The notes under the pieces: generated by a model
The model's input: only the letters and a program-made list of their open reading frames with translations
Databases searched by the model: none
Told to the model about the DNA's origin: nothing
Origin: an uncultured Bacilli bacterium
Lineage (GTDB): Bacteria; Bacillota_I; Bacilli_A; RF39; UBA660
Length of the DNA stretch: 32,651 nt
Assembly: GCA_947631035.1 (NCBI GenBank)
Contig: CANRJW010000013.1
Location: forward strand, 1-32,651
Reading direction: 5' to 3'
Shown: piece after piece, positions 2,908-28,323 of the stretch
Layout: every line of letters begins with the position of its first letter
Position numbering within the stretch: the first letter of the stretch is position 1
Program-made: the position numbers and the translations under genes

Positions 2908-4593
2908 CTACATTTTTGATGGAGCATCCATTCCTAGTATACCTAATAAATCATAAATAATTTTAGTAGTTAAATCTAGAAGTGTTACCCAATCTCTTTT
3001 CTTTTCACAGTCTTCTAAATTATTAATATGATTATTTTCATAAAATGCATTCACAAAAACACAAATTTCATATAAATAATTGGCGACCACCGAAGGCATT
3101 CTCGTTTTAAAGGCATATTGTAAGACATCGTTTAGTTCGAGAAGTTTAAGCCTTATGTTTCGGTCGTGAACATTATATATTGTTTTTGATAACTTGTCTA
3201 TATAATTTTCATTATTTTTTACAATTTTTTTTGTTCTCAAATAGGAATAGAGTACATAAGGTCCTGTTTTACCGGTTGTTTTCGAGAATTTGGCAATATC
3301 AAAGTTGTAGTCTTTTTCACGATTGTTTTGTAAATCAGCAAATTTAATAATGGCATTGATAATCTTTTTTAAGTCTTCTTCCGTATACTCCACATTATGT
3401 TCTTCGTTAGCCAAGAAAATTTGCTTGGTTTCTAAAAAGAGATCGTCGAGTTTTGGGGTATTGCCTGCTCTAGTTTTAAAGGGTTTCCCATCACTACCAT
3501 TAATGGTTCCAAAACCTAAAAATTCATAATCAATATGTTTTAGAGAGTTCGTTTTTTTAGCAGCACGAAAGACTTGGATAAAATGTAAGCCTTGACGACT
3601 ATCCGCAACATATAAGATTTTGCTTGGGTGATAATCTTTTTCTCTTTGATAGATGGTTGCTAAATCGGTGGTTCCATAAAGATACGCACCATTACTTTTT
3701 TGATAAATACAAGGAGGTATTTCTTGTTTATCACTTTCTTCAGCTATTTCGATGACTCTTGCACCTTCACTGGTTTTTAAAAGATTTAAACTTTCTAATT
3801 CTTCGGTGAGTTTTGGAATATAAGGATAAGCATCGCTTTCGCCAAGCCATAAATCAAATGTAACATCTAAATAATCATAGATTCTTTTAATATCTTCTCT
3901 AGAAATTTCTAATATCTTGTGAAAATAGGCTTGATAAGTAGGATTTCCTTCTTGCATCTCTTTGGTAATGGTTTCACAAATGGTTTTAATTTCGGCATTT
4001 TCTTTGCATAAAGCACTGATTCTTGGATAGATTTCTGCTAATATTTCTAATGTGACATCCTCTGGTGTTTTGCTTTCTTGTTGCAAACCATAAATAACCT
4101 CCCCAATTTGAAGTCCATAGTCTCCTAAATGAACATCCGAAACAACATCTTGATTCATATATAGTAATAATCTTTTAATGGCTTCTCCCACGATAGCAGG
4201 TCTTAAATGACCAACATGCAAAGGTTTTGCTACATTTGCTCCACCATAATCAATCACTATCGTTTCTTTTTTAGGCATCGAAACATTAAACTTTTCTTTC
4301 GTTTGCATTTCATTTAAAAGTTCATTCATATAGGTATCACTTAAAGTAAAGTTTAAAAAACCGGGTTTTACACATTCAATTTTTGAAAATTTCTTTTGGC
4401 AACTTTCTTTTTTTTCTAAAGCCTCTTGTAATTTTAAACCAATGTTGTAGGGATTTTCATGGATTTCTTTAGCCAAATCAAAAGTCCCGTTGTATTGATA
4501 ATCACATAAATCTGGACGATTGCTGGTTAAAACTTCCGCCTCTTTCTCTAATCCATAGACCTCTTTAATTGCTTCTTTTAACTCTTCATTCAT
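2908..4593 (-). CDS. argS: Arginyl-tRNA synthetase
   Basis: Class I synthetase charging tRNA-Arg. The 561-residue protein shows an N-terminal Add-1 type domain, the class I HIGH signature as HVGH (VAKPLHVGHLRPAIVGEA), a KMSK-like site degenerated to KPFKTR as is usual in ArgRS, and a C-terminal DALR helical domain ending MDAPSKM. I chose the ATG at 4593. The frame is open to a GTG at 4605, but that codon overlaps the AAAGGTG ribosome binding site. The 4593 start gives an ATGA overlap with the DUF1934 gene, implying translational coupling. No T-box leader is visible. Confidence 0.95.
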   Translation of the reverse strand: MNEELKEAIKEVYGLEKEAEVLTSNRPDLCDYQYNGTFDLAKEIHENPYNIGLKLQEALEKKESCQKKFSKIECVKPGFLNFTLSDTYMNELLNEMQTKEKFNVSMPKKETIVIDYGGANVAKPLHVGHLRPAIVGEAIKRLLLYMNQDVVSDVHLGDYGLQIGEVIYGLQQESKTPEDVTLEILAEIYPRISALCKENAEIKTICETITKEMQEGNPTYQAYFHKILEISREDIKRIYDYLDVTFDLWLGESDAYPYIPKLTEELESLNLLKTSEGARVIEIAEESDKQEIPPCIYQKSNGAYLYGTTDLATIYQREKDYHPSKILYVADSRQGLHFIQVFRAAKKTNSLKHIDYEFLGFGTINGSDGKPFKTRAGNTPKLDDLFLETKQIFLANEEHNVEYTEEDLKKIINAIIKFADLQNNREKDYNFDIAKFSKTTGKTGPYVLYSYLRTKKIVKNNENYIDKLSKTIYNVHDRNIRLKLLELNDVLQYAFKTRMPSVVANYLYEICVFVNAFYENNHINNLEDCEKKRDWVTLLDLTTKIIYDLLGILGMDAPSKM

Positions 4594-11100: not shown

Positions 11101-12687
11101 ATGAATTTAAGACGATTTAATAAACATAAAAAGCAAAAAGAAATTATAATTGGAAGCATAATATTATTAATAGTAATAATTGGAGGTATAAGTCTAATCG
11201 CAAGTTTTGCTATGTACGAAGAAAAAGCAACCTTTAATGTATTAAAAGGAACAATACCTGATTTTAGTACAAAAGATATAAACTTGTCTTTTACCATAGA
11301 TGGGCAAACAGAAACCAATAAACCTTTTCCAAATAAAAGTGAAGGCTATATAGTAGAAGAAGTAGACTGTGAAGATAATGTAACAGCAGATTGGAATAAT
11401 GGTAGTTGGAGTCTAGAGAATATAAAAAATGAGGGAACAGCCAAGAAAGTAAAATGTACAGTAAAATTTAAAACAATAAATACCACAAGTGGTTTAAATG
11501 GAGCAGAACCAGTCTTAGGAGAAGGAATGATACCAGTTATTATAAAAGATAATGGTAAAGTATATAAAACAACTGAAGATAGTGAAGATTGGTATGACTA
11601 TGAAGCAAAACAATGGGCGAATGCTGTAATATTAGCAGATGGTAAAAAAGTGGAAGATTATGCCAATGATTCAATAATACCCGAAAGTGATATCGAAAGT
11701 TATTTTGTATGGATACCCAAATTTAGTTATCAACTATTTGATATGGGGAAATATTTTGGTACTACACAATTGGAAACAGCCAAACAAAATAAAGCCATAA
11801 AAATAAGATTTGGAGTTATTAATACAGAAGATGGAGAAGGAGAATGCAAAACACCAATGTTAGATAATGGAGTACAAGGGGCAAGTGGAGAAAGTGGACA
11901 TTGTAAAGTAGGAGATTATATGACACACCCAGCATTCATAGCTTTCGACACAACAGGTTTATGGGTTGGCAAGTTTGAAACAAGTCAAGGTAGCAGTAAT
12001 GGAATTCAAATTAAACCAAATGTAAGTAGTTGGAGAAGTATTACAATAGGCGATTCTTTTAAAAATTCTAGAGATTATCAAAAAGAATTACAAAGTCATT
12101 TAATGAAGAATACAGAATGGGGAGCTGTTGCTTATTTAACTCAGAGTATTTATGGAAGATGTGATAAGGACACGAATACTTGTAAAGAAGTAGCAATAAA
12201 TAGCAATGGCTCTTATTATACAGGATATACAGGAAGTACAGCATATTTTAGTGGTTCAAAAGATGCAAGTACAACCGAAAACTATAGCGGAATTTATGAT
12301 ATGTCTGGTGGAGCATGGGAGCAAATGGCTAGTGTTATGTTCAGTAACAATGGAACAACAAAATTGTATAGTTCTAGCGGATTAACAGATACTGAGTTCA
12401 GCGACCCAAGATATTACGATGTATATTCTTATAGTAATGAAAAAACTAGTTGGAATAGAAGAATACTCGGCGATGCAACAGGAGAAGTTGGACCATTTGT
12501 GCTATCTGGTAGTAATTATATAAGTTCAATGTGGGGAGATTACGCTAACTTAGTTAATTTGGCATCTCCTTGGTTTTACCGTGGAGGTGGCTATGACTTT
12601 GGGGTTGGTGCTGGTTTGTTTTCTTTCGGTCTTAGTACAGGCGGTGTGTATAATGTTTACACTTTTCGCGTTGTCCTAGCACCATAA
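11101..12687 (+). CDS. Membrane-anchored surface protein with FGE-sulfatase/C-type-lectin-like domain (copy C)
   Basis: A 528-residue protein. It has a short basic cytoplasmic N-terminus (MNLRRFNKHKKQKE), one membrane segment (about 15-37), and an extracellular stalk domain beginning MYEEKATFNVLKGTIPDF. The C-terminal domain has features of the formylglycine-generating-enzyme fold: WVGKFETSQ, MKNTEWGAVAYL, MSGGAWEQM (near residue 401), RRILGDATGEVGPF and a final TFRVVLAP. FGE-like folds without catalytic cysteines are often ligand-binding C-type lectin modules. Start set by AAAGGA before ATG. The last 40 codons use CGT/CGC for Arg, while the rest uses eight AGA and one CGA. The function is probably adhesion or recognition at the cell surface, by inference. 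Confidence 0.72.
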   Translation: MNLRRFNKHKKQKEIIIGSIILLIVIIGGISLIASFAMYEEKATFNVLKGTIPDFSTKDINLSFTIDGQTETNKPFPNKSEGYIVEEVDCEDNVTADWNNGSWSLENIKNEGTAKKVKCTVKFKTINTTSGLNGAEPVLGEGMIPVIIKDNGKVYKTTEDSEDWYDYEAKQWANAVILADGKKVEDYANDSIIPESDIESYFVWIPKFSYQLFDMGKYFGTTQLETAKQNKAIKIRFGVINTEDGEGECKTPMLDNGVQGASGESGHCKVGDYMTHPAFIAFDTTGLWVGKFETSQGSSNGIQIKPNVSSWRSITIGDSFKNSRDYQKELQSHLMKNTEWGAVAYLTQSIYGRCDKDTNTCKEVAINSNGSYYTGYTGSTAYFSGSKDASTTENYSGIYDMSGGAWEQMASVMFSNNGTTKLYSSSGLTDTEFSDPRYYDVYSYSNEKTSWNRRILGDATGEVGPFVLSGSNYISSMWGDYANLVNLASPWFYRGGGYDFGVGAGLFSFGLSTGGVYNVYTFRVVLAP

Positions 12688-18836: not shown

Positions 18837-20133
18837 TTATTCTGCAATACTGATGCGATAAGGGGTATTTTTTGTGCCTTCACCGCTTTTATATTGGACT
18901 TCTTGTTTTAGATAAAATGTAGGACGGACATAATAATTCGAAAAACCACTCCCAGAAACATAAACTCTATTAGCCCATACTTGACCTGTAAGGCTTATAG
19001 CTCATATAAGCAATGAATTCACATAAGTATTACTTTCAGGTACAGTATCAATCGTCCATTCACCTACATCAATTGATGCAAATAGCCACCCTTGCATAAA
19101 TTGATTTCTATTATCATAAAGTGACTTATTAAAATAGGTTTCACCTAATTGAAAACCATAGTCACTTGCATACATTAATCCAATAGGTGCAACAATTTTT
19201 TTTGAAGAACCATTCCTTTCATTTAGATAAAATTGGTTAGGAGTTATAGCATTTTGGTTTGCAGTAAACACTCCTAAATTCCACAAGACATTATCAATAT
19301 ATTTTTGATAATTTGTTATAGATTCCCAGTACGTTGTATTTAAATAACTATATACATTACTTTTATCGTATTGATTGGAAGAGGCACTTCCTGACCAAGT
19401 GGATTTAGTCGTAGCATTTGCCTTAATTAATTTCACTCTGTTTTCATAGGATCCACCTACTTCACTTTGTGTTGGTATAACTCCTATGATTCGATATAAA
19501 TTGTCGTCTGGACAAGTTTCGTTTTCACTTCCAAAGCATACATAATTATCTGGATCACTTCCAATATATCGATAATCTATTTTGGCATTATCTCCTGTTT
19601 GTTCCGTTGTTTCATGTTCTACTTTTTCTAATAAATCATCATCTTCTACTTGATTTAAAATATATTCAGAAAATAACACTTTAGTTTCAAATGTTATATT
19701 ACATACTACTTTTTTATTATCATTTGCTTTCACGTTTATTAGTCCCTAATATTTGTTACTCCAATCCGCTGTTGCTCCATTTTTACATTCTACTTTTGTT
19801 CCATAATATCCTGACTCTTTTGTAGGAAAATTTTCTGTTCCTGTTACTCCATCAATTGTATAAGCAAGATTAATATCTCCACTTGCAAAATCAGGTATAG
19901 TTCCCTTTAATACATCAAAGGTTTCTTTTTCTTCATACATAGCAAAACTTGCGATTAGACTTATACCTCCAATTATTAATACAATTGCTATTATGCTTCC
20001 AATTATAATTTCTTTTTGTTTTCTATTTTTATCAAATCGCTTTAAGTCCTCTGGTTTCCTATTATTATCTAATATACCCCCCCCCCAGACGACTATTTCG
20101 CTCGGTTGGGAGGCTCTTTTTGAAACTTTTCAT
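18837..20133 (-). pseudogene. Surface-protein gene of the poly-G family, OFF and broken by two nonsense codons (copy A)
   Basis: The minus-strand ATG at 20133 (behind AGGAGG) reads MKSFKKSLPTERNSRL into a G10 tract and then stops. With 9 or 12 Gs it would enter the frame of a membrane anchor and the stalk MYEEKETFDVLKGTIPDF shared with copies C and D. That frame then meets TAG (19746-19748) and TGA (19002-19004), and finally ends at TAA (18837) after VRPTFYLKQEVQYKSGEGTK. The TAG sits where copies C and D have Trp (DWNN-xxW). The C-terminal half (YIGSDPDNYVCFGS, YRIIGVIP, then IGLMYASDYGFQLG) differs from the FGE-like copies but matches a surface-protein type common in gut Firmicutes. Confidence 0.75.
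20059..20113. repeat. 55-bp identical leader cassette with G10 tract, copy A
   Basis: Identical to 23251-23305, same orientation. It holds ten Cs on the plus strand (20077-20086), flanked by TAATATA and AGACGACTATTTCGCTCGG. It is the N-terminal coding part of pseudogene A. Confidence 0.9.
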
Positions 20134-21206: not shown

Positions 21207-23325
21207 TTAATTTAAGGCTAGAACAACACGGAAACTGATAGTTCGTACGCCTCCACCTTTTTCATCAGCGAAACTAGTAACACCAGCATTGATGCCATAA
21301 TCATTCAAAGCTCCCCTTTTGAACCAAGGGTTAATAGAGATAGGAAACCAAGCCAAATCGTCGTACCAAGAACTTTCTCGATTCGTTTGTTGACCAAACT
21401 TTATCGGTATAAAAGGTCCCATTTCTCCTGTGGCATCTCCTAAGATTCGCTTGTTATATTCAGTATTCTTTGAATTTGAATACTTATCATAATATTTGGC
21501 TTCAATTTTTTCTAATGTTAATCCGCTTTCATCTCCAATATCTAAACCCCCATTTATATCTACTCCCATAACATATTCCCATGCACCTCCAGACATATCA
21601 TAGATTCCACTATAATTTCCCGTTGTACTTGCATTATTACTTTTTGGATTTGTGTAATTATAGGTTCCTTTAAATTCACCTGACCCAGTTTCATTATCAC
21701 TCTTAGGTGCTACATTCCCATAATCTTTATAACCACCAAAACCAGTATTTGGTTCTGTTGTTGATGCATAGCCCGTTACATAATTACTATTATTATTGAT
21801 TCTAACTTCTTCACAGGTTCCTTTTTCTTTATCACATCTTCCATAGATGGAGTTAGTAAGATAAGCAACTGCTCCCCACTCTGTATTCTTCATCATATGA
21901 CTTTCTAATTCTTTTTGATATGCAAGTGATGTTTGAAAAGCATTTCCTACGCTTATACCTCTCCAACTATAGACATTTGGTTTTATAATAACTTTATTTG
22001 AAGCAGTTGTATCATTTTGAGCACCACTAACTGTCCAACCTGTTGTATTCGTTAAAGAATTATCTTCATTTTGGTTATATCCAGTTTCAAATTTGCCAAC
22101 CCATAAACCTTTGCTTTCAGGAAAAGCTAAGAATGCTGGATGCGTCATCCACTTGCCTACTTCACATTGTCCATCTTGTCCTGATACCTTTGGACTTTCA
22201 CATTCACTTTCTCCATTTGTTGTTCCTGTATCTGTTGTATCAGTATTCCCAAAGATTATCTCTATTGAAGTATTTGGCCCTTTATCAGGTAGTTCACTTC
22301 CATCTTGTAATACTTCAGTATATTTCCCCATGTCAAATATCTTATATTTGTATTTCGGTATCCATACAAAATAACTCTCGATATTTGTTTCCGGTATTTC
22401 CGCTCCTACTTCTGGTTCTGCTGTTCCCTCTGTTAGTATAACAGCATTCGCCCATCTCTTCTCTTCATAATTATACCAATCATGGGCTAAATCTGCTCTA
22501 GTAATTGTTCCATTATCACTTATAATGACTGGTATTAGTTTATCGTTTGTTGTTGGTTCTTCTTCTGCTAGTGTATTGGTTGATAATAAGGCAATTTCTT
22601 CTTTATTATCTTCATTCCCTAATACCGGGTCTGCTCCATGTAATTTCGGTTCATTATAAACCGCTAATTCATTTAGACTTCCATCTACTACTATTTTACT
22701 GATAAAACTTTTATTCATTGAATCACTCGTTGCTTCTACACTTTCGTCCATCCATAGTTTTATTGTATACGTTTTTGTATCATTTCCGTTTAATGTTCCC
22801 TTTATGAGTTCTCTTGCTTCGACTGATTTATAATCTGCTCCTTCATAAGTTTTGTTTCCTTCTGGATAGTTTGATAGTAGTTCTTTTTGCCCTCCATTAA
22901 ACTCTACTGCTATATACTTACTATTTAATAATTTATCCTCTTGTCCATTCGTTTGCATCAACTTCTCTAATTTCACAGTATAATCCACTATTGTGTTACA
23001 AGTATTTGTTATTGTAAATTGATAAGGTGTTAATTCTTCTGCTTGTTTATCTGTTAAAGGATAAGCATTTTGTAACTTTATATTATCTTGTTCCTTTTCT
23101 ATTGCTACTTTAATACAACTACTTTGCACTTCATTAATCCCTTGTTGAGTTGCTGTTGATGTCCACCATGCATAACTCGTTCCTACTAATATGAATAATC
23201 CTGCTATAATTCCTACTAGCAGTATCTTTATTCGTCGTTTGGGTTCCTTTCTATTATTATCTAATATACCCCCCCCCCAGACGACTATTTCGCTCGGTTG
23301 GGAGGTTCTTTTTGAAATTATTCAT
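21207..23325 (-). CDS. Phase-variable surface protein, FGE/C-type-lectin-like, frame-disrupted by G10 tract (copy B)
   Basis: ATG at 23325, behind GGAGGAG, starts MNNFKKNLPTERNSRL and enters a G10 tract. As sequenced, it stops a few codons later. With 9 or 12 Gs it continues as GGGILDNNRKEPKRR into a membrane segment (ILLVGIIAGLFILVG) ending TSYAWWTSTA, like SipW/TasA-type exported proteins. Then about 640 uninterrupted residues follow to TAA at 21207. The body has a TasA-like beta region (ITNTCNTIVDYTVKLEKL), a linker, then the FGE-like domain (WVGKFETGYN, MKNTEWGAVAYLTNSIYG, MSGGAWEYVMG, RRILGDATGEMGPF, SFRVVLALN). The body is intact, so the gene looks switchable rather than dead. A one-base count error in the tract would change the state. 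Confidence 0.75.
23251..23305. repeat. 55-bp identical leader cassette with G10 tract, copy B
   Basis: Identical to 20059-20113, same orientation, 3.2 kb away. The ten-C run (G10 in the gene) is at 23269-23278, inside codons 16-19 of the reading frame. Confidence 0.92.
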
Positions 23326-23353
23326 TTCTCTTTCTCCTCCATATCTTAATCTA

Positions 23354-23382
23354 ATTCTACTATGAATCACCATAAATTTCAA
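23354..23382 (-). promoter_or_regulatory. Sigma-A promoter of copy B
   Basis: TTGAAA (23382-23377), 17 bases, TAGAAT (23359-23354) on the minus strand, 28 bases before the start codon. Confidence 0.7.
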
Positions 23383-26305: not shown

Positions 26306-27934
26306 TTATCCCAAAGTAATACGAAATCCCTTATCAACTCCACCACCGCCATCAGAATGAGAAAATGCGAAAATTCCACTATAACTCCCATTATTAAAGG
26401 ATGCGTCGTCTGCTCTTCCACCGCGAAAACCGAATGGCAACCCCGAGGTAAGCCACCAAGCATAATCTCCATACATTGAACCTATTAAGCATCCACCACC
26501 ACAATGGGTTCCAGAATTACCATATACAGCAAATGGTCCTACTTCTCCTATAGCATCACCCAATATTCGACTATTCCAATTTCCTATAGAAGTTCCATAA
26601 TTCTTATATACATCATAATATTTTGAATCATTTAATGTAGATAAGTCTAATCCGCTACTCCCCCATACTGGAGTTTTACCATCAGTTCCTACTATAACAC
26701 TCGCCATTAGTTCCCATGCTCCACCACTCATATCATAAATACCACTGTAATTTCCTGTGGTACTTGCTAATTGCTCATTATCTTGTTCACCATAGGCTGT
26801 AGTATTCGTATATCCAGTTTTGTAGTTACTATAACCATTAATTGTTACTTCACTACACGTTTTATTTTTGTCACATCTTCCATAGATACTTTGCGTTAAA
26901 TAAGCCACTGCTCCCCATTCTGTATTCTTCATTAAATGACTTTGTAACTTAGACATATAGTTTTGAGAATTTTTAAATGCGTCTCCAATTGCAATATTTC
27001 TCCAGCTTGTTACATTTGGTTTGATTTGTATTCCGCCATTATTGTTTTGACTTGTTTCAAATTTTCCTACCCAAAATCCATTTCCTCCAAAGGCTAAAAA
27101 TGCAGAAGGTGTTATATAATTCCCCATTTCACAATTCCAACTTTCTCCTGATAATCCTTGTGTTTTATTTTTATTCATTGGGGTTGTACATTCGTCTTTC
27201 ACACTATCGTTTGTATTGATAAGCCCAAATTTTATTTGTATGGCTAAATTATTTTTGCTAATAATTCCTGTTTCTGAAGGATAATTCCCTGATTGGACAT
27301 CAAACAAACGATAACTATATTTCGGTATCCATACAAAATAACTTTCGATATCACTTTCTTGTATTTCTTCTCCTACTTCTGGTTCTTTCGTTCCATCAAC
27401 AAGTATGACTGCATTTGCCCACTCTTTATCTTCGTAACTATACCATTCTCCACTTTCAGGTTTTACTTTTTTTACAACTCCTTTGTCCCCTATTTTTACT
27501 GGTATCATTCCTTCTCCAAGAACTGGGTCTGCTCCATTTAAGATTGGTTCTCCTTTTATTGTTTTAAATTTTACTGTACATTTTACTTTCTTTGCTTCTC
27601 CATTATTCTTTATATTCTCTAAACTCCATGTACTATTATTCCAATTAGCTATTACATTATCTTCACATTCTACATTTTCTACTATGTAACCTTCACCTTT
27701 ATTTGGAAAGTTAGTATTCGTTTGAGTTTGTCCATCTATAGTAAAAGCTAAGGTTATGTCTTTTGTACTAAAATCTGGTACAGTTCCTTTTAATACATCA
27801 AAAGAAGCTTTTTCTTCATACATGGCAAAACTTCGGTATAGACTTATACCTCCGATTATGACTATGATTGTTATTATACTTCCAATTACAATTTCTTTTT
27901 GTTTCCTATGTTTATTAAATCGTTTTAAATTCAT
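26306..27934 (-). CDS. Membrane-anchored surface protein with FGE/C-type-lectin-like domain (copy D)
   Basis: 542 residues from the ATG at 27934 behind AGGAGATAAT; six upstream in-frame codons belong to the leader. It begins MNLKRFNKHRKQKEIVIGS, with one membrane segment (about 14-37) and the stalk MYEEKASFDVLKGTVPDF. The FGE-like domain follows (WVGKFETSQN, MKNTEWGAVAYLTQSIYG, MSGGAWELMASV, SRILGDAIGEVGPF). The Gly-rich end (GGGGVDKGFRITLG) differs strongly from copies B and C. It is controlled from a near-consensus promoter overlaid by operators and divergent from an XRE gene. Role inferred as surface adhesion or ligand recognition. Confidence 0.72.
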   Translation of the reverse strand: MNLKRFNKHRKQKEIVIGSIITIIVIIGGISLYRSFAMYEEKASFDVLKGTVPDFSTKDITLAFTIDGQTQTNTNFPNKGEGYIVENVECEDNVIANWNNSTWSLENIKNNGEAKKVKCTVKFKTIKGEPILNGADPVLGEGMIPVKIGDKGVVKKVKPESGEWYSYEDKEWANAVILVDGTKEPEVGEEIQESDIESYFVWIPKYSYRLFDVQSGNYPSETGIISKNNLAIQIKFGLINTNDSVKDECTTPMNKNKTQGLSGESWNCEMGNYITPSAFLAFGGNGFWVGKFETSQNNNGGIQIKPNVTSWRNIAIGDAFKNSQNYMSKLQSHLMKNTEWGAVAYLTQSIYGRCDKNKTCSEVTINGYSNYKTGYTNTTAYGEQDNEQLASTTGNYSGIYDMSGGAWELMASVIVGTDGKTPVWGSSGLDLSTLNDSKYYDVYKNYGTSIGNWNSRILGDAIGEVGPFAVYGNSGTHCGGGCLIGSMYGDYAWWLTSGLPFGFRGGRADDASFNNGSYSGIFAFSHSDGGGGVDKGFRITLG

Positions 27935-27951
27935 ATTATCTCCTAAAATCA

Positions 27952-28024
27952 TAGCCTTATCTAGACTATTGTTAATTCATTATAGCCTGATTAAGGCTAA
28001 AAGTCAATAGCCTAAATTAGTCTA
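27952..28024. promoter_or_regulatory. Three 17-bp operators for the adjacent XRE regulator
   Basis: TAGCCTTATCTAGACTA (27952-27968), TAGCCTGATTAAGGCTA (27983-27999) and TAGCCTAAATTAGTCTA (28008-28024) share the pseudo-palindrome TAGCCT-n5-AG-n-CTA. The middle copy overlaps the -10 and fills most of the spacer of the surface-gene promoter. The third abuts the -35. The first lies in the leader. Confidence 0.85.
27979..28007 (-). promoter_or_regulatory. Near-consensus sigma-A promoter of copy D
   Basis: TTGACT (28007-28002), 17 bases, TATAAT (27984-27979) on the minus strand. Strong unless the overlapping operator is occupied. Confidence 0.88.
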
Positions 28025-28284: not shown

Positions 28285-28323
28285 TTTTGCTAAAAATTAC
28301 CATGTCAAATTGCAAACATTTGT

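Follow-up and report, generated by a model that had tools for sequence, protein, structure and literature searches.

The poly-G tract of copy B

The window, by which we mean the whole stretch of 32,651 nucleotides analysed here, is contig 13 of a 1.43-Mb draft genome with 30% GC, 82 contigs and an estimated completeness of 92.7% (G000, hereafter the host genome). It carries copies A to D of one protein family, and copies B and D lie behind the same leader, each with a run of ten guanines.

23377-23382, minus strand: -35 box TTGAAA, 17 nt from the -10 box
23354-23359, minus strand: -10 box TAGAAT, the same hexamer as in 31 of 43 leader copies
23334-23340, minus strand: Shine-Dalgarno (SD) sequence GGAGGAG, 8 nt upstream of the ATG
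23257-23325, minus strand: leader ORF as sequenced (OFF), MNNFKKNLPTERNSRLGGGYIR-stop, 22 aa; the leader is common to 48 loci
23269-23278, minus strand: G10 tract (C10 on the plus strand) by exact sequence count, the proposed switch
23257-23268, minus strand: stops of copy B in both wrong frames, within four codons past the tract, TATATTAGATAA
21207-23267, minus strand: body of copy B, 686 codons, the open frame past the tract
19749-20133, minus strand: copy D, degraded, with the same leader and its own G10 at 20077-20086; in-frame TAG after 109 codons
19002-19733, minus strand: remnant ORF of copy D past the in-frame TAG
11101-12687, plus strand: copy A, a homologous body that lacks leader and tract and starts MNLRRFNKH
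26306-27952, minus strand: copy C, a homologous body that likewise lacks leader and tract, with a MNLKRFNKH start near 27934

The frame opened by the ATG of copy B at 23325 enters the G10 tract at codon 16 (CTG) and meets a stop six codons on. A preliminary description of this DNA had claimed a run of ten Gs, a start with a strong ribosome binding site and a promoter, and a reading of 16 codons into the run followed by a stop, and each of these elements was located as listed above. Leader and body are joined only when the number of Gs, n, equals 0 modulo 3, and at the sequenced G10 copy B is OFF by one base, as had also been stated. The frame past the tract is indeed intact, although its length, given as about 640 codons when counted from the first GTG, is 686 codons (23267 to 21207). 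Thus a G run of at least eight lies inside a reading frame near its start and its length alone joins or breaks an intact ORF, which is how contingency loci are recognised. Two G10 runs are observed in the window versus none in 100 dinucleotide shuffles of it.

The leader of copy B also contains the motif CCTCCC (within 23269-23306), which does not vary among 44 copies and includes the rare leucine codon CTC (3.3% of Leu codons). In the RNA this motif is predicted to base-pair with the G-tract (z -2.9), and competition for the SD sequence is a further possibility. C-rich stretches are found upstream of the tract in several other leader types as well.

The body of copy B encodes a basic tail, one membrane helix (RIKILLVGIIAGLFILVGTSYAWW) and a large predicted extracellular part. 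From this layout the switched proteins are predicted to be type II anchored through one N-terminal helix and would be displayed on the outside. Three kinds of membrane anchor follow the tract in different copies (PEDLKRFNK..., KEPKRRIK...SYAWW and KEPRRLKK...SYAY), indicating that the leader cassette was combined with different proteins. The preliminary description had named a membrane anchor and a domain resembling formylglycine-generating enzyme (FGE). The C-terminal part shows weak FGE-sulfatase/C-type-lectin-like similarity in six of ten family members searched in Pfam, with a best E value of 0.00048, and copy C, at 17.7 bits in hmmscan, stays below the FGE-sulfatase (PF03781) gathering cut-off of 23.3. 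Searches of PDB sequences with the family proteins returned chance matches only, and an AlphaFold model of copy B, built on a 10-row alignment, was too poor to use (mean pLDDT 37).

The last ~48 aa of the family are hypervariable (e.g., 21207-21360 of the window in copy B), with a pattern PW-R-GG....G...GVF.F.........FRIVL that resembles the variable regions of diversity-generating retroelements (DGR). A role as DGR target was rejected, as the host genome has no RVT_1 and variation at third codon positions is about as high as at the other two; in the genus, RVT_1 is present in thirteen of 22 genomes and absent from nine. At least nine family members of the host genome, copies A and C among them, start directly at the body with neither leader nor tract, and copies A and C are presumably not switched.

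A leader common to 48 loci

The preliminary description dealt with a single tract, but the phenomenon is a genome-wide, multi-copy repertoire that takes in the second G10 of the window (20077-20086) and 58 further tracts. On both strands of the host genome there are 60 runs of eight or more Gs, of which 50 are G10, five G11, four G9 and one G8. That long G runs should be rare by chance was correct: for runs of at least nine, 0.1 are expected from base composition and 0.7 from an order-1 Markov model, and 59 are seen. As the peak at 10 is sharp and only two runs of exactly seven Gs exist, the distribution cannot be read as a tail of shorter runs. One common leader holds 48 of the 60 tracts, and the remaining 12 lie elsewhere.

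The leader cassette consists of a promoter, an SD sequence, about 16 codons, the G-tract and stops in both off-frames. Its ATG is located 47 nt upstream of the tract in all copies whose contig extends that far, and positions -27 to -18 (CCTCCCAACC) are identical in all 44 copies that have a full leader. A sigma-70-type promoter with a 17-nt spacer precedes 41 of the 43 copies that could be examined (median score 10 out of 12, as compared to 7 in control DNA). Tract length varies between these paralogues of one assembled genome despite their conserved flanks, with one copy at G8, four at G9, 40 at G10 and three at G11.

All 48 bodies are in one relative frame and are joined to the leader only at n = 0 modulo 3, so that four copies are ON, all at G9 (L032, L043, L066 and L075), and 44 are OFF; L066 lacks an ATG because its contig starts inside the leader. 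Both wrong frames terminate within four codons past the tract in 48 of 48 copies, versus 12.6% of in-frame body positions. As the copies share descent and undergo gene conversion, they do not amount to 48 independent tests. None of the bodies has, within its first 45 codons, an in-frame ATG, GTG or TTG with an SD-like motif; for copy B the preliminary description had called 23325 the only well-placed start.

The OFF copies are under purifying selection and are not decaying as a group. Their pairwise dN/dS over the N-terminal domain has a median of 0.53 and is mostly 0.2-0.4 in the closest pairs, and only two of them, L023 and copy D of the window, are plainly interrupted.

Among the 12 tracts outside this leader, those of two long surface proteins (L037, L050) are OFF, that of a lipoprotein (L056) is ON at G10, and two (L057, L069) are situated in promoter spacers. 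Three more lie within 8 kb of each other (G000:C6:25013-32891): an acyltransferase-like gene that is OFF at G10 and would be ON at 8 or 11 (L029), a membrane protein that is OFF through a mid-gene tract (L030), and a G11 within a promoter spacer, TTGAC-G11-ATAATGTTATAAT (L031). Together these three look like a phase-variable surface-modification cluster. Two tracts (L021, L076) adjoin phage-tail-like genes and are described at the end; L048 and L049 complete the set.

Proposed replication slippage and its alternatives

Based on the sequence data we propose translational phase variation by replication slippage, serving a large surface repertoire that would be set to OFF by default at the modal length of G10, and we put the probability of this reading at roughly 0.88. 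The preliminary description had read copy B as a slippage-driven ON/OFF switch, and every testable prediction of that reading holds over the 48 paralogous copies and several related species. Slippage during replication, presumably at a high rate in growing cells, would now and then shift a tract by one base. At G10 translation would halt within four codons past the tract and the gene would be OFF, whereas a length of n = 0 modulo 3, as seen at G9, would fuse leader and body into the full anchored protein, ~705 aa in the case of copy B. Since the copies slip independently of one another, each cell would carry a small set of the proteins, drawn at random, and a population very many combinations. 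With four of 48 copies ON in the assembled genome, independent drift would leave about four of the 48 proteins per cell; at any given time a single cell thus probably expresses a few surface proteins picked at random. The benefit may lie in varied adhesion or in evading phages, competitors or the immunity of the host.

The preliminary description had suggested looking for mixed tract lengths in individual reads or in related strains. In the assembled genomes lengths range from G8 to G11 between paralogues and include G9, G10 and G11 in other species, and they thus differ between loci rather than at one locus. A counterpoint is that 40 of the 48 copies share one length, a narrower peak than that of Campylobacter, where poly-G/C tracts peak at 9 (53%) and 10 (26%) (PMC6321876).

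This narrow peak bears on the alternative that a programmed slippage of the transcript or the ribosome operates on a tract fixed at G10, with a small fixed share of events slipping and all copies being expressed at a steady low level. A fixed length describes most copies fairly, and the bodies are under selection though nominally OFF, as such expression would have it. Yet copies with nearly the same flanks carry 8, 9 or 11 Gs, immediate termination in either wrong frame agrees with a tight OFF state, and relatives place their tracts in promoter spacers, where slippage of the transcript cannot work. Moreover, the G10 peak is also found in tracts with other frame needs (L056, L029) and in non-coding ones (L057, L069), and this suggests a mutational equilibrium, not an optimum tied to one frame; as the peak stays at G10 whatever length is ON, it looks like a mutational resting length and not a chosen frame. 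Transcriptional slippage, which the preliminary description had offered as an alternative, accounts for the 40 copies at G10 but is less likely, since copies that share their flanks differ in length, and we consider programmed slippage of either kind improbable.

Even less probable, in our estimate, is a silent archive, in which unexpressed OFF copies feed gene conversion into a few expressed ones, including copies A and C. The family is large, its bodies are mosaic, at least nine full copies have no tract, and the leader is strongly homogenised, all of which would suit an archive; classic silent cassettes, however, have neither promoter nor start, whereas the tract copies keep promoter, SD sequence, ATG and frame. 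Gene conversion could coexist with switching. A homopolymer miscount or assembly artefact, with a true length of G9 and genes that are simply intact, might be suspected in a fragmented 82-contig draft in which several contigs end inside the repeated leader. This explanation, raised earlier as a sequence error, is very unlikely. Tracts of this length class are seen at about 50 loci and again in independent genomes from other species and samples, while identical conditions gave G9 at four copies. A miscount at a single locus does not explain 48 copies of the same anatomy, and the dual off-frame stops and the independent promoter-spacer tracts would be left unexplained.

Relatives, known systems and phage-type leaders

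Runs of at least nine Gs are present in all 22 genomes of the genus that were searched, with up to 76 per genome, and in 106 of 193 sampled genomes of the family, whereas in a sample of the class the genomes from 21 other families have at most 12 such runs each. Among 145 family genomes the exact 48-copy leader was found in the host species alone, and relatives have leaders of their own: G151 carries three leader types with 12 coding tracts, all OFF at G10, G147 has a leader reading MKKEEKK..LPTSGTRL, and in G021 the tract lengths peak at G9. For coding leaders in other species, 21 of 24 cases would be ON at 9 or 12, and stops come early in both wrong frames. A genome from another genus, G133, carries about 20 copies (L184-L203) of one promoter, TTGCA..C-G9/10-TATAAT, whose spacer of 18-19 holds the tract, and is, as judged from its DNA, a putative transcriptional version of the same repertoire. 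Protein relatives of the whiA product of the window come from metagenome-assembled genomes of uncultured Bacilli and Tenericutes from the guts of rabbit, mouse and other animals.

These comparisons allow a tentative generalisation, to which we give slightly less than even odds, that poly-G slippage is the main source of surface variation in this whole family of uncultured gut Bacilli, with an ON length of G9 lying one step off a resting length of G10. If this were true, dozens of paralogous surface proteins would be OFF by default and a few would be displayed per cell without any regulator, and different genera would have reached the same outcome from unrelated parts, namely coding leaders and promoter spacers.

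No match to MutS1 was detected in the host genome, versus its presence in 183 of 193 family genomes; as the host genome is 92.7% complete, this absence may be an assembly gap. Loss of MutS1, if true, would raise slippage. Loss of mismatch repair as a general cause was rejected, as MutS1 is present in other tract-rich relatives.

The best-known large surface repertoires driven by slippage are those of pathogens (Neisseria, Haemophilus, Campylobacter and mycoplasmas). In the opa genes of Neisseria, CTCTT pentamer repeats near the start of the coding region set the frame. Eleven opa genes are present in one gonococcal strain (PMC11868660). As in the host genome, these form a multi-copy surface family in which each copy has its own frame-setting repeat and cells express random subsets; unlike here, where poly-G precedes a type II anchored protein in 48 copies, the repeat is CTCTT, the product an outer-membrane beta-barrel and the copy number ~11, and homology is not expected. 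The vlhA family of Mycoplasma gallisepticum comprises tens of surface-protein genes, each with a short repeat of which most lengths are non-productive (PMC6258824), but its GAA repeats lie upstream of the promoter, act on transcription and control unrelated proteins, whereas the poly-G studied here is inside the ORF. Campylobacter and Helicobacter strains have 5-81 phase-variable genes each, with tracts mostly inside ORFs (PMC6321876), and share with the host genome poly-G/C tracts of 9-10 in AT-rich DNA; there the tracts belong mostly to single genes for glycan, flagellar and capsule enzymes, in contrast to one leader cassette before one surface-protein family.

The nearest parallel in design comes from another Gram-positive gut commensal, Bifidobacterium breve, whose sortase-pilus loci bbr_0113 and bbr_1889 (Penno et al. 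2022, PMC9187656) also have an intragenic G10 or G11 that separates a short, translated start ORF from a long surface-protein ORF, are OFF at the annotated length and have a downstream part without an SD sequence of its own. B. breve has two such loci, both encoding pilin precursors, as compared to 48 copies of one leader before paralogous anchored proteins, and its replication slippage was measured, whereas the lengths reported here are known from one assembled genome. In culture, the bbr_1889 pilus locus was 93.4% G10 and 6.5% G9 (PMC9187656), and this share of G9 is close to the four of 48 copies at G9 in the host genome.

The principle of the poly-G contingency locus is thus already known. 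New are the lineage, the copy number of a single poly-G leader cassette, a default-OFF setting common to different species, and the finding that one bacterial family employs tracts in coding regions as well as in promoters. We found no paper that joins RF39, the presumed lineage of the host, or formylglycine-generating enzyme, with phase variation, in searches that had most subscription journals outside their reach. With 48 switch copies and ~60 tracts in 1.4 Mb, the repertoire is among the largest of its kind, and it resides in small-genome, uncultured gut Bacilli. This suggests that behind the consensus genomes of such animal-gut bacteria the surface differs from cell to cell, and that apparently frameshifted genes are live. 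As metagenome reads can span the tracts, switching and selection in the gut are measurable without culture.

Pattern scans of viral contigs returned no copies of the family-type leader or of the phage-type leaders that precede the two phage-tail-like genes. These phage-type leaders encode tiny peptides, MKNFSFYGGGG.. at L021 (G000:C2, G11 tract at 28289-28299) and MRIFNFYGGG.. at L076 (G000:C63, G10 tract ending at 4366), and are followed by a CCTCCC..GGGAGG hairpin over the SD sequence of the next gene. Phase-variable control of a prophage receptor-binding protein is a possible role for this arrangement.
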